From NCBI RefSeq assembly GCF_000016665.1, contig NC_009523.1, forward strand, positions 2,356,001 to 2,420,000: 64,000 nt of DNA, read 5' to 3'. The notes beneath the pieces are model-generated. The model was not told where the DNA came from. It did not search any database and saw only the letters and a program-made list of their open reading frames with translations. Shown one piece after another: positions 6,714 through 34,535 of this stretch. The position numbers and the translations under genes are program-made. Source of the stretch: Roseiflexus sp. RS-1 (GTDB taxonomy: Bacteria; Chloroflexota; Chloroflexia; Chloroflexales; Roseiflexaceae). How positions within the stretch are numbered: position 1 is the stretch's first letter; the number at the start of each line of letters is the position of its first letter.

Positions 6714-6722
6714 CGCGCGCTC

Positions 6723-6846
6723 CTTTCATTCCTGGCGTTGAACGTTCAACGTTGTAATGTTCAACGCTTAACGTTAACCTTTCATTCCTGGCGTTCAACG
6801 TTCTAACGTTCAACGTTCAACGTTCTAACGTTCAACGCTCAACATC
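6723..6846. repeat. 7-bp repeat array between bchH and the BCD carrier gene
   Basis: Units of the AACGTTC/CAACGTT type fill the gap. A 17-base block, CTTTCATTCCTGGCGTT, occurs twice (near 6723 and 6779), so the array has also been duplicated as a larger piece. The last units overlap the end of bchH and contain its TGA stop. Confidence 0.85.
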
Positions 6847-12410: not shown

Positions 12411-12473
12411 GGTTCAATCTTCAACCTTCAACCTTCCCACCTTCAACCTTCCCACCTTCAACGTTCAACGTGC
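12411..12473. repeat. 7-bp repeat array overlapping the 3' end of bchM
   Basis: About nine period-7 units (TTCAACC, TTCCCAC and CGTTCAA types). The array encodes the last four residues of BchM (His-Val-Glu-Arg) and its TGA stop at 12458-12460. Confidence 0.85.
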
Positions 12474-14003: not shown

Positions 14004-15710
14004 TCAACCGCCCAATGCCTCTCGCGCTTCAACCAGAACCTCAGCGGTGATCGTTGCATACCCGTGCTGCATCGCGTACCGTTCGACGTTCTTTTGCACC
14101 CGTCCCCGCACGAAGAAGGGTATCTTCTTCAGCATCGCCTGTGCGTCTGGAGTCCAGACGGGGTGAACGGTAGAAGATGATGGTGTGGTTGCGCGATTGG
14201 ATTCTTCCGTCACGACGCTCCTGGATGGAGCAGCCGAAGGTTCAGCGGCGCCGACGCTAACGCCTGCTTCCGGATGTCCGTTCGCCGATGCCCGGTTTTC
14301 GACTCTCAACTCCTGGTTTTCGGTTCGCGGTTCCCCGGTTTGCGGTTCGTCATAGTCCAGCCCTGCGTCGCCGAACATATCAATCAGATGCTTTTCCATG
14401 CCCAGCGTCGCTGTGGTGTAGACTGCGTCCGCCAGGACGTCGGCGCCATCGAAGCCGAGCACCGGTCGGTAGCTCAACAGATGGTTTTCGATATGCGTCG
14501 GCGGCGCGATCACCAGGCAGGGGATGTCGAGTTTGCGGCAGGCGTGGCGTTCCATCTGCGTGCCACAGACCAGTTCGGGCGACAGGTCGGCGATCCGTCG
14601 CGCGACATGCTGAAACACATCGGTCGCCAGAAAGGAAGATTTGGGCGATCCCGAATCATCGGGGGGCAGATACTCTTTGAGTTCCTGGTACACCCACTCT
14701 GCCTCTTCCTCCAGGTAGGTTCCCGCTCCGGCGATCTGCATGCCCAACTCGTCGCGCAGAAACTTCACCATGCCGACGGTATGGGTGGCATCGCCGAAGA
14801 CAAAGGCGCGCTTCATGCTGTAGCTTTCCATGTCGGCAGTGCGCGCGAACCAGGGAACCGAACTCGGCGCGCTCATCCCGTCGAGTGAGAAAGCAGTCAG
14901 CGGCGGCAGGCGCAGCGGTGTTGACAGGCGTTGCAGGCGCGCACCGGCTTCATTCAGCGTCTCAACCAGTCGTCGGAGCCAGCGTAATGTCGGTTGCACC
15001 CCGATAGGAGCGTCGGTCAACGCCGGGATGCCGAACTGATCTTCGAGCCAGCGGGCGGCGTTCTGACCCAATTCACGGTACGGCGCAATTGTTGCCCATG
15101 CCGCCGGCAGACGCTCCAGATCGTGGATCGATGCGCCGAGCGGCGCCACCACGTTGATCTGCACGCCGAGTGTCGCAAGCATGCGCCGCAGGCAGATCAG
15201 GTCGCTGCGGTTGTGGAAGCCGAGCGACGCCGGACCGAGAATGTTGACAGACGGCGTCGGCAGCGGCGCCTGCGGGCGCGCAAAACGCTGCACCAGCGTC
15301 GTCAGCAGCCCATCGGCGGAACGAACCTCCTGCATCCGGTACGGATTGGCGTCATACACCAGCACCTCTGCGCTCGTTCCGGCGCTGCGCGCCATCCGTT
15401 CCAGGTCTTCCTGGAGCAGAATGGTCGAACAACTGGCGCACACGATGATCAGATCGGGATGAACCTGCGCATCGACAGCGCGCAGTGTTTCAGGGAGACG
15501 CACCGTACCCTGCGCCAGGTCGCGCCCGCTGACAATGCTGGTCGTCATCCGGGGGAAATCAGGGGTACGTTCCAGCATGGTGAAGATCGGATTGACGTAG
15601 TCATCTCCCTGGGGAGCGTGGAAGACAGCGTGCACCCCGCGCATGCTGTTGGCGATCCGCCCGACGCCGTGATGGGCAGTGCCCTGATACATCCAGAGAG
15701 CCAGTCGCAT
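14004..15710 (-). CDS. bchB: Dark-operative protochlorophyllide reductase subunit B, with repeat-derived linker
   Basis: The NifK-like catalytic subunit, forming with BchN the protochlorophyllide-binding heterotetramer. It has 568 residues, on the long side for BchB. The core runs from [15 protein letters not shown] through the cluster Cys region [30 protein letters not shown] and the stretch around [14 protein letters not shown]. The PCP-red tail begins near [14 protein letters not shown]. Between core and tail lies a linker of about 70 residues; its first part, [19 protein letters not shown], is the 7-bp repeat in translation, and the rest is Ser/Ala/Pro-rich. The ATG at 15710 has AAAGGA upstream. 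Confidence 0.96.
14291..14350. repeat. 7-bp repeat inside the bchB coding region
   Basis: Read on the plus strand, the units CCCGGTT TTCGACT CTCAACT CCTGGTT TTCGGTT CGCGGTT are in exact period 7, followed by a one-base slip and two more units. The same type (GAACCGA, GAACCAG) fills the gap near 34080-34163. Here it lies in frame in the linker between two BchB domains. Confidence 0.85.
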
Positions 15711-15770
15711 AGCAGTGTCCTTTGGTTCGCCACCCACGTGCGCGCCACTGGCGCGCCCCTACCGCCGCTT

Positions 15771-15875
15771 GCAACCTGCAACCCGTAACCCGCAACCCGT
15801 AACCCGCAACCCGTAACCCGCAACCTGCAACCCGTAACCTGCAACCTGCAACCCGTAACCTGCAACCTGCAACCC
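15771..15875. repeat. Perfect-period 7-bp array between bchN and bchB
   Basis: Fifteen uninterrupted heptamers (105 bases) built from GCAACCC, GTAACCC, GCAACCT and GTAACCT, with substitutions only at the second and seventh positions. It begins about 60 bases upstream of bchB, and its last base is the first base of the bchN stop codon on the reverse strand. Confidence 0.97.
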
Positions 15876-17122
15876 TACCGCGCCGGCATCAACCCCGCCA
15901 CCCAGAGCGGATCGTCCATAAGCGGATCGAGTTGGGCGTGGCGCTTGAGCGGGCGGGTAAACATCCCGGCGAGCGTTGCTGCGCCACTCCAGCCGTGGAT
16001 CGGCATAAAACTGAACTCCGTGCTCCACTTTGCCACCACGCCATGCCCGACGAGCGGGTTGGTGGTTGCCAGGTTGCTGATCACCAGGTCGGGGCGCAAC
16101 TCCTGGATGTCGCGCAACTGCCGGTCGAAGTTGGGCTGCTCGACGACGCGTACGCCATCGAGCGCTTCCAGTTCGCGGGCGTGGAACTTGCGATTGATAT
16201 ACGGACTGCTGCATTCGAGAATGGTGCATCCCGCGTGCCTGAGAAAACGCGCCAGCGGCAATTCCATAAGGTTATCTGCGGTGAAGAACACTTTCTTGCC
16301 GCGCAACACATCGAGGTGTGGTTCAAGACGCTCCCACGCCTGCCGCTCGCGTTCGCGCAGATCGACGGCAATCCCCATCGCAGCCGCTACGTCCTCCCAG
16401 AACGCCCGCGTTCCATCAGGACCGAACGGGAACAGCGAACTGACCACAGTGGCGCCACGTTCGCGCGCCAGTCGACCGGCAACCTTCGCCAGGTATGGTT
16501 GCAGCGGCGCAACCACCGTTCCCGGACCGATCGGCGGCAGATCGTGGAAATGGCTCTCCGGCAGAAAACCAGCCACCGGAATACCAAGGCGCGCTGCCTC
16601 AGTGCGAAAATCATCGGCAATCGCATCGTTCACCGAGCCAAGAAACACCACCCGCCGGTCGTCGGGGGGAGCGACGGGGCAGAAAGGCAACAGCGCCTGC
16701 AACACCGAATCTTCCGCCTGGCTGAAGGTATAGTCGAGACCGCTGGCTGGCACGAAGAGCACCGGCAGGTTGGGGCGACTGACCGCGCGCGCCAGACCGT
16801 CGAACTCGACCTTCATCACTTCCGGCGTGCACGACGACAGCAGGAAAATCACCGAAGGATGATGATCGGCGACAATCTCATCAATGATCCGATCCAGTTC
16901 CGGCTGTTGCTTTGAAAGATCGGCTTCTTCTATCAGCGCAACGCCAAAGCGCGGACGGGCGAAGATCATGACGCCGAGCACATTCTGGAGCAGATGGGCG
17001 CAGGTATGCGTGCCAAGCACGAGGAAGAAACTGTCCTTGATCTTCTGGTACAACCATCCCACACATGTCAGACCACAGAAACTATGGTACGCGCCGTCTT
17101 CCCGAATCACTGTTGCAGGCAT
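15875..17122 (-). CDS. bchN: Dark-operative protochlorophyllide reductase subunit N
   Basis: The NifD-like subunit of the light-independent reductase, 415 residues, normal length. Cluster-ligand Cys lie in [20 protein letters not shown] and [11 protein letters not shown]. Other family stretches are [19 protein letters not shown] and [17 protein letters not shown]. The ATG at 17122 is followed by [15 protein letters not shown], a typical BchN start. The TAG stop abuts the 105-base heptamer array. It is followed by bchB and bchL, the usual N-B-L order. Confidence 0.97.
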
Positions 17123-17170: not shown

Positions 17171-17281
17171 CAACCCACAACCTTCAACCCCACAATCTTC
17201 AACCCCACAACCCCACAACCTTCAACCCCACAGCCCTCAACCTTCAACCCTCAACCTTCAACCCTCAACCTTCAACCTTCA
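17171..17281. repeat. 7-bp repeat array overlapping the 3' end of the methyltransferase gene
   Basis: About sixteen period-7 units, mostly CAACCTT, CAACCCC, CACAACC and CAACCCT. The array fills the bchN upstream gap and encodes the last residues (Val-Lys-Val-Glu-Gly) and the TGA of the methyltransferase gene. Confidence 0.93.
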
Positions 17282-34079: not shown

Positions 34080-34163
34080 GTTACAAGAACCAGGAACCGA
34101 GAACCGAGAATCAAGAACCGAGAACTGAGAACCAGGAACCAAGAACCAGGAACCGGGAGTCAG
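34080..34163. repeat. 7-bp repeat array (GAACCGA type) just upstream of thiW
   Basis: About eleven period-7 units: GAACCAG, GAACCGA, GAATCAA, GAACTGA, GAACCAA and similar. It ends about 20 bases before the thiW start. This subtype matches the one inside bchB. Confidence 0.93.
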
Positions 34164-34286
34164 GGGTTCAAGGGCGGACAGAAAATATGTGCGATCCACC
34201 TTTCCACCGGTACCATGCAACGCGCAATGCGTTCCAAACATGCAACGTGCAACCCCCACACCCCCTCAGGGCGCGCCTTTAGTATT

Positions 34287-34535
34287 CAACGTGCAACATT
34301 CAACGTTCAACGTTCAACGTTCAACGTTCAACGTGCCACAACCTCCCCACCTTCAACCTTCAACGTACAACGTGCCACAACCTCCCCACCTTCAACCTTC
34401 AACGTACAACGTGCCACAACCTTCAACCTTCAACCTTCAACGTGCAACGTGCAACGTGCCACAACCTCCCCACCTTCAACCTTCAACGTGCAACCTTCAA
34501 CCCTCGCGCCCCTATCGCCTCACGCCTCCCGCCTC
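34287..34535. repeat. Long 7-bp repeat field between thiM and thiW
   Basis: Over 30 units of GTTCAAC, CTTCAAC, GTGCAAC and CCACAAC type, with a few phase slips. A 39-base block beginning GTGCCACAACCTCCCCACC is repeated in tandem, showing duplication above the 7-base scale. The end next to thiM runs as CGCCTCA, CGCCTCC, CGCCTCA, up to its stop. The 485-base gap holds no gene. Confidence 0.93.

Follow-up and report, generated by a model that had tools for sequence, protein, structure and literature searches.

How does a 7-bp repeat that mostly lies between genes come to be translated inside a photosynthesis enzyme? The question is raised by the bchB gene of Roseiflexus sp. RS-1, found in the 64,000-nucleotide stretch of DNA analyzed here (the window; positions 2,356,001 to 2,420,000 of contig NC_009523.1). 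The gene occupies 14004-15737 of the window on the minus strand. Matches to solved BchB/ChlB structures (PDB) and the combination of a nitrogenase-like Oxidored_nitro core (PF00148) with a C-terminal PCP_red domain (PF08369) identify its product as light-independent protochlorophyllide reductase subunit B. In an alignment of 16 BchB proteins, conservation extends to residue 460 and resumes at W528. The intervening linker is predicted to be disordered, as it lacks secondary structure in an AlphaFold2 model of moderate overall confidence (mean 65.8) and has pLDDT values of 24-34 between the ordered core and the PCP_red helices. The parts of the gene are as follows.

14412-15677, minus strand: nitrogenase-like catalytic core of BchB (PF00148), residues 21-442, from Pfam and PDB matches
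14157-14357, minus strand: inter-domain linker of BchB, approximately residues 461-527, holding the array, from the alignment of 16 BchB and AlphaFold2
14292-14348, minus strand: coding heptamer array, eight AACC-type units plus one base, from sequence, translation, comparison of the chain with shuffles, and synonymous recoding
14022-14156, minus strand: PCP_red domain (PF08369), following the linker in BchB, residues 528-572, from Pfam (E 6.6e-19)

In its coding register the array comprises 57 bp, or 19 codons, specifying residues 464-482. Read on the plus strand in GGTT register (14294-14350), it consists of the units GGTTTTC, GACTCTC, AACTCCT, GGTTTTC, GGTTCGC and GGTTCCC, an extra C, and then GGTTTGC and GGTTCGT. 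Sequence and translation thus agree with the initial annotation, according to which six in-frame heptamers are followed, after a slip of one base, by another two. The single extra base brings the total to 8 x 7 + 1 = 57, a number divisible by three. The PCP_red domain is encoded downstream of the linker, and its reading frame constrains the length of the array. The claim that the repeat encodes much of the linker stands in a narrower form: about 19 of roughly 67 residues are encoded by it here, which is not most of the linker, while in the relative SKYG45 the repeat supplies more than half. One 7/8-bp chain in the array contains six exact GGTT words, and five AACC/GGTT chains are present in the window versus 0 in a shuffled copy of it. 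When the protein was held fixed and codons were redrawn at genome usage, the AACC chain of bchB was reached in about 0.1% of recodings. The lag-7 identity of this copy is modest (25/42) and was reached in 1.2% of synonymous recodings.

The bchB array belongs to a large repeat family. The 5.80-Mb genome is a single contig of 5,801,598 bp with Roseiflexus MAGs as close relatives, and a search for four-unit GGTTNNN arrays yields 602 overlapping matches in it versus 1 for the reversed pattern. A survey of individual arrays covered 2.86 Mb (49% of the genome), with approximate gene calls made by a small hexamer-based finder. In this sampled half, 7 is the most frequent tandem period among 4 to 16, and 84 of 107 GGTT-family arrays are intergenic, with less than 30% gene overlap. 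Arrays favor gaps between aligned genes (73 vs 54 expected), with GGTT on the sense strand in 57 of these 73, and 55 of the 101 arrays beside a gene 3' end extend to its stop codon. Common units are GGTTGAA, GGTTCTC, GGTTCCT and GGTTCTT. Depending on the genome, a GAACCGA trimer with two mismatches allowed has 44-407 matches in the six Roseiflexus studied, and 0 in the control. These repeats have the properties of a dispersed bacterial heptamer family: a 7-bp tandem unit at many loci, a mostly intergenic location and copy numbers that differ between close relatives, as neighboring gaps in this genome and in 629F.7 demonstrate. No mobility machinery for the repeat was seen. The window itself contains the following further arrays, listed without strand.

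34084-34158: intergenic GGTTCTC/CCT/CTT array directly upstream of thiW, from TRF and sequence
34285-34502: intergenic GGTTGAA/CGTTGAA-type array with the hydroxyethylthiazole kinase gene on one side and thiW on the other, from TRF and Pfam matches of the neighbors
15771-15875: intergenic GGTTGCA/GGTTACG array occupying most of the interval between bchN and bchB, from TRF
17171-17281: GGTTGAA/GGTTGAG array entering the end of a methyltransferase gene (...KVEG-stop), from TRF, ORF list and sequence
12413-12469: GGTTGAA-type array extending to the stop codon of bchM, which encodes the Mg-protoporphyrin methyltransferase, from TRF, ORF list and Pfam
6722-6843: CGTTGAA-type array at the 3' end of bchH, from TRF and sequence

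The gene downstream of the array at 34084-34158 matches ThiW (Pfam, E 1.6e-48), and the pyrimidine-type GGTT units of this array (GGTTCTC/GGTTCCT/GGTTCTT) bear out the statement that the subtype found in bchB also fills the gap before thiW. The bchN-bchB gap of 629F.7 carries a different array. Arrays enter gene 3' ends at 17265-17281, 12458-12469 and 15871-15877 of the window, and the last residues and stop codons of such genes appear to be supplied by the heptamers, ...KVEG-stop being one example. Another intergenic repeat, GACCTTTGAGGTCT, which has GACCTCAAAGGTCT partners, is found in the gap next to bchM and in the bchN-bchB gap of BF4.103, R1_47, SKYG45 and SKYB12, and a related stretch, CCTCTGAGGTCTTC, is present in the gap of the window.

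The history of the coding array can be followed in the six Roseiflexus genomes compared, in which duplicate loci (for example L002 and L031) were counted once. The array is present in each of the six bchB genes and comprises 8 to 24 units; five of the sequences come from draft MAGs, where repeats can be misassembled. Unit numbers and linker lengths, measured from LDY to VW, are as follows.

SKYG45 (L034): about 24 units, 89 aa
BF4.103 (L032): about 21 units, 82 aa
SKYB12 (L038): about 18 units, 75 aa
629F.7 (L031): about 8 units, 64 aa
This genome: 8 units, 64 aa
R1_47 (L033): about 8 units, 48 aa

As had been anticipated, linker length varies by frame-keeping heptamer steps while the flanking domains remain constant. 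The three longest linkers are separated by exactly 7 aa, equivalent to 21 bp or three heptamers, which is the smallest whole-unit step that preserves the frame. The expected differences in copy number between strains are likewise observed, with 629F.7 equal to this genome. The BchB proteins of these two are 98-99% identical and have linkers of equal length, and neighboring array-bearing intergenic stretches measure 214 vs 412, 140 vs 250 and 160 vs 144 bp in this genome and 629F.7, respectively. Such turnover of gap lengths points to slippage or unequal recombination. The length steps in bchB fit the same processes, of which the end states alone are visible, and slippage would be the mechanism setting the length of the bchB array, with this genome and 629F.7 equal in linker length.

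All six arrays begin just after LDY-E/D and have E-P codons at the same phase, and an ENQE unit is common to several of the species. The extra base follows unit 2 in this genome and lies near the 3' end in three others. In the BchB tree the six array-bearing proteins form one branch with moderate support (89/94). In L035, the nearest outgroup, the linker is unrelated and has no array, and the gaps, 13-72 bp long, are likewise free of arrays. Shared position and codon phase suggest a single ancestral entry, with the uniting branch at its moderate 89/94. Had the residues of the array been conserved in distant phototrophs without the repeat, this would have spoken against a repeat origin; EPRTENR-like sequence is present in no other BchB linker examined. 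With a family that is largely intergenic (84 of 107 arrays), an in-frame array in six of six Roseiflexus bchB genes and an outgroup without one, the central proposal that an intergenic heptamer has become coding sequence in bchB is upheld.

The periodicity resides in the DNA. Compared with synonymous recodings, the 7-bp periodicity was matched in 0 of 2000 for both SKYG45 and BF4.103, in 0.15% for 629F.7 and in 0.6% for SKYB12. It thus goes beyond what the protein requires in five of six genomes, and the decayed copy of R1_47 is not significant by this comparison. In addition, most heptads in the arrays of the relatives use AGA, a codon used for 1.5% of the arginines encoded by this genome. 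The excess over recoding together with AGA usage indicates that the bchB repeat is a translated DNA repeat and not a protein-driven periodicity. Three units are read as seven codons, as described at the outset, and yield the cyclic peptide EPRTENR; since 7 equals 1 modulo 3, every frame of a perfect array yields this same cyclic peptide. A unit that ends in TGA or TAA produces a stop in one of three phases and is harmless in the other two. Stop-bearing units make up 8/30, 6/27 and 0/22 of those at phases 0, 1 and 2 of the Roseiflexus bchB arrays, counts that come from related sequences and thus lend support without giving a strict probability; the baseline is 21.5% of GAACNNN units in the mostly intergenic arrays of the sampled genome. 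Third codon positions are only slightly enriched for substitutions (p 0.049), so that constraint on individual residues is weak. The accepted gene-internal arrays (bchB and two membrane-protein genes) all carry AACC on the sense strand, the reverse of the orientation that is usual between genes, probably due to the stop codon in GGTTGAA and to the hydrophobic peptide that the other strand of GGTTC subtypes would encode.

We consider it highly probable that a slippage-prone dispersed repeat seeded a permissive, presumably disordered linker and that filters on frame, stop codons and the hydrophilic strand shaped the resulting spacer. A tandem GGTTNNN/AACCNNN family located mainly between genes would grow or shrink by slippage or unequal recombination, and one subtype (GAACCGA-like in the sense direction) would have entered the bchB linker in an ancestor shared by the Roseiflexus species sampled. 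The array may then have been kept as a hydrophilic spacer as long as its net length left PCP_red in frame and no unit gave an in-frame stop, with later expansion to 18-24 units in three species or decay to 8 units in this genome. Its role would be that of a tolerated spacer, nothing more specific. The suggestion of a selfish or slippage-made repeat at an insertion-tolerant site holds in its second half: slippage together with some route of dispersal suffices, and no sign of mobility that would make the repeat "selfish" was found.

Other readings place the cause elsewhere. The heptad peptide could be a selected protein repeat, functioning in docking or oligomerization, with DNA periodicity as a by-product. 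Its presence in all six Roseiflexus, the retained EPRTENR register and the slight third-position enrichment would fit this idea, but the periodicity exceeds synonymous recoding, the heptamer is dispersed in non-coding DNA, and a linker predicted to be disordered conserves neither sequence nor length, ranging from 8 to 24 units and having no counterpart in other phototrophs. We therefore regard a selected peptide as decidedly improbable. Chance periodicity of a charged linker, to which the modest lag-7 identity here (25/42) and the non-significant R1_47 copy might point, deserves next to no credence given orthologues with up to 24 near-perfect units (SKYG45 and BF4.103 contradict it) and an exact heptamer dispersed in all six genomes.

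Two further alternatives concern how the array arrived and what its length changes do. Separate entries of the same family into different Roseiflexus lineages would account for the differing position of the extra base, and two other lineages discussed below show that this linker accepts repeats repeatedly; the common start after LDY-E/D, the same codon phase and the shared ENQE unit argue for one ancestral entry and make separate ones unlikely. Slippage by one unit in near-perfect arrays such as that of SKYG45 could also reversibly drop PCP_red, making bchB phase-variable and switching dark bacteriochlorophyll synthesis on or off within a mat population. Other bacteria have contingency loci built of heptamers or tetramers, the unit length is not divisible by three, and the arrays of SKYG45 and BF4.103 are long, nearly perfect and of a slip-prone kind. 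Against such switching, all six consensus genomes are in frame, every known step in length is a multiple of 21 bp, and the copy in this genome is short, degenerate and the same in 629F.7, so that we assign it a very low likelihood, below that of a selected peptide.

The reading of a translated dispersed repeat in a permissive linker extends beyond Roseiflexus. In the BchB linker of L053 (6324-6450), in-frame GAAGACA heptamers (TEDRRQKTEDRRQ) are found; this record falls on the Chloroflexaceae/Oscillochloridaceae side of the BchB tree, and its Gracilibacteria label evidently comes from a MAG that is mixed or wrongly labelled. Within the genome of L053 (G060), the corresponding TTCTGNN family is matched 81 times, versus 2 in the control, and it has no match in the two Roseiflexus genomes searched. 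The linker of an Oscillochloris-type genome (L045/L019) contains an 8-bp GGGGACNN array with a period-8 identity of 0.74 that reads as HGDAVTGG-type octads, and this family has 145 matches in its own genome (G059) versus 0 in the control. Linker periodicity exceeds all 2000 synonymous recodings in both cases. The BchB linker has taken up three unrelated non-triplet repeats, each from the dispersed family of its own genome, and at least two related lineages have filled the same linker independently with different repeats.

A literature search found no work specifically on Roseiflexus repeats, and comparable families are known elsewhere. STRR sequences are tandem heptamers dispersed in filamentous phototrophs and reported inside a functional gene, that of the RNase P RNA, and Rickettsia palindromic elements are dispersed repeat DNA tolerated in frame at permissive sites inside protein genes. 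STRR units differ from those described here, occur in a different phylum and do not form a protein linker, while the Rickettsia elements are palindromic and 100-150 bp long, not heptamer arrays, and no palindrome was noted in the bchB array. PMC2670836 and PMC2858038 mention STRR heptamers of heterocystous cyanobacteria, and PMC2229807 discusses the Rickettsia elements. The TAACTGA heptamers of marine Beggiatoaceae and some cyanobacteria (MacGregor, 2015; PMC4679880) resemble the Roseiflexus family in being dispersed, mostly intergenic arrays, some inside or overlapping ORFs, with orientation limited by stop codons and with overlap of the stop codons of upstream genes. They differ in their unit and in sitting just upstream of gene starts, and the 25 Beggiatoaceae ORFs that contain or overlap TAACTGA sets do so mostly at their ends or encode hypothetical proteins (PMC4679880). 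In contrast, the Roseiflexus array is internal to the linker of a conserved enzyme, genus-wide and up to 24 units long. The GGGAATC and GGGGA(C/T)T heptamers of Xanthomonas and Nostoc show the same stop-codon bias, and the excerpted text of Rehm et al. (2015; PMC4692102) describes no linker array with an orthologue series. Their core is GGG instead of GGTT, so strong four-stranded structure is presumably not expected in Roseiflexus, where, unlike in those heptamers, the last three bases vary. With units such as GGTTGAA, GGTTCTC, GGTTCCT and GGTTCTT, the Roseiflexus family works like the TAACTGA, GGGAATC and STRR families but is none of them.

Dispersed heptamer families with rare intragenic arrays are thus already known from Xanthomonas, Nostoc and Beggiatoaceae; the novelty here is that a coding array runs through a whole genus in a conserved enzyme of photosynthesis, that its length changes in clear 21-bp steps, and that one linker has been filled convergently. 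In a clean natural example, simple-repeat DNA from non-coding regions has become protein, and the source family, the coding copy, the in-frame length steps among relatives and the filtering by stop phase can all be seen together. With unrelated repeats in this linker in two additional lineages, the case grows from an anecdote into a test of which places in proteins accept new sequence. For BchB trees, repeat-rich linkers are DNA-driven and should be masked.

In the sampled half of this genome bchB is not the sole gene with a family array. A PMT-type glycosyltransferase gene (genome 521356-523833) has an internal 223-bp heptamer array, and a gene for a 1351-aa multi-spanning protein (1560538-1564593) has four. 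Both genes are of a membrane glycosyltransferase-like type, and their long in-frame STFNLQP-type arrays lie in loops between predicted membrane stretches; the glycosyltransferase orthologues examined have no long array at that loop. A methyltransferase/Eco29kI-type protein (5015535-5017088), with matches to DNA methylase and Eco29kI restriction endonuclease, carries a C-terminal array in the form of a heptamer-coded QPATCNLQ tail. Chains at 1275003 and 5145730 were rejected as chance, and hydrophobic N-terminal "extensions" at 2976192 and 3162735 were rejected as probably over-long gene starts. A 15-bp-unit repeat encoding (EEPSC)n, in an element present in eight copies, was also rejected as a family member. 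The 167-aa ORF with (EEPSC)n at 122422-122926 recurs in seven more sampled copies (for example at 200458, 315745, 388713, 1035562 and 5053118) and is likely part of a multi-copy element.
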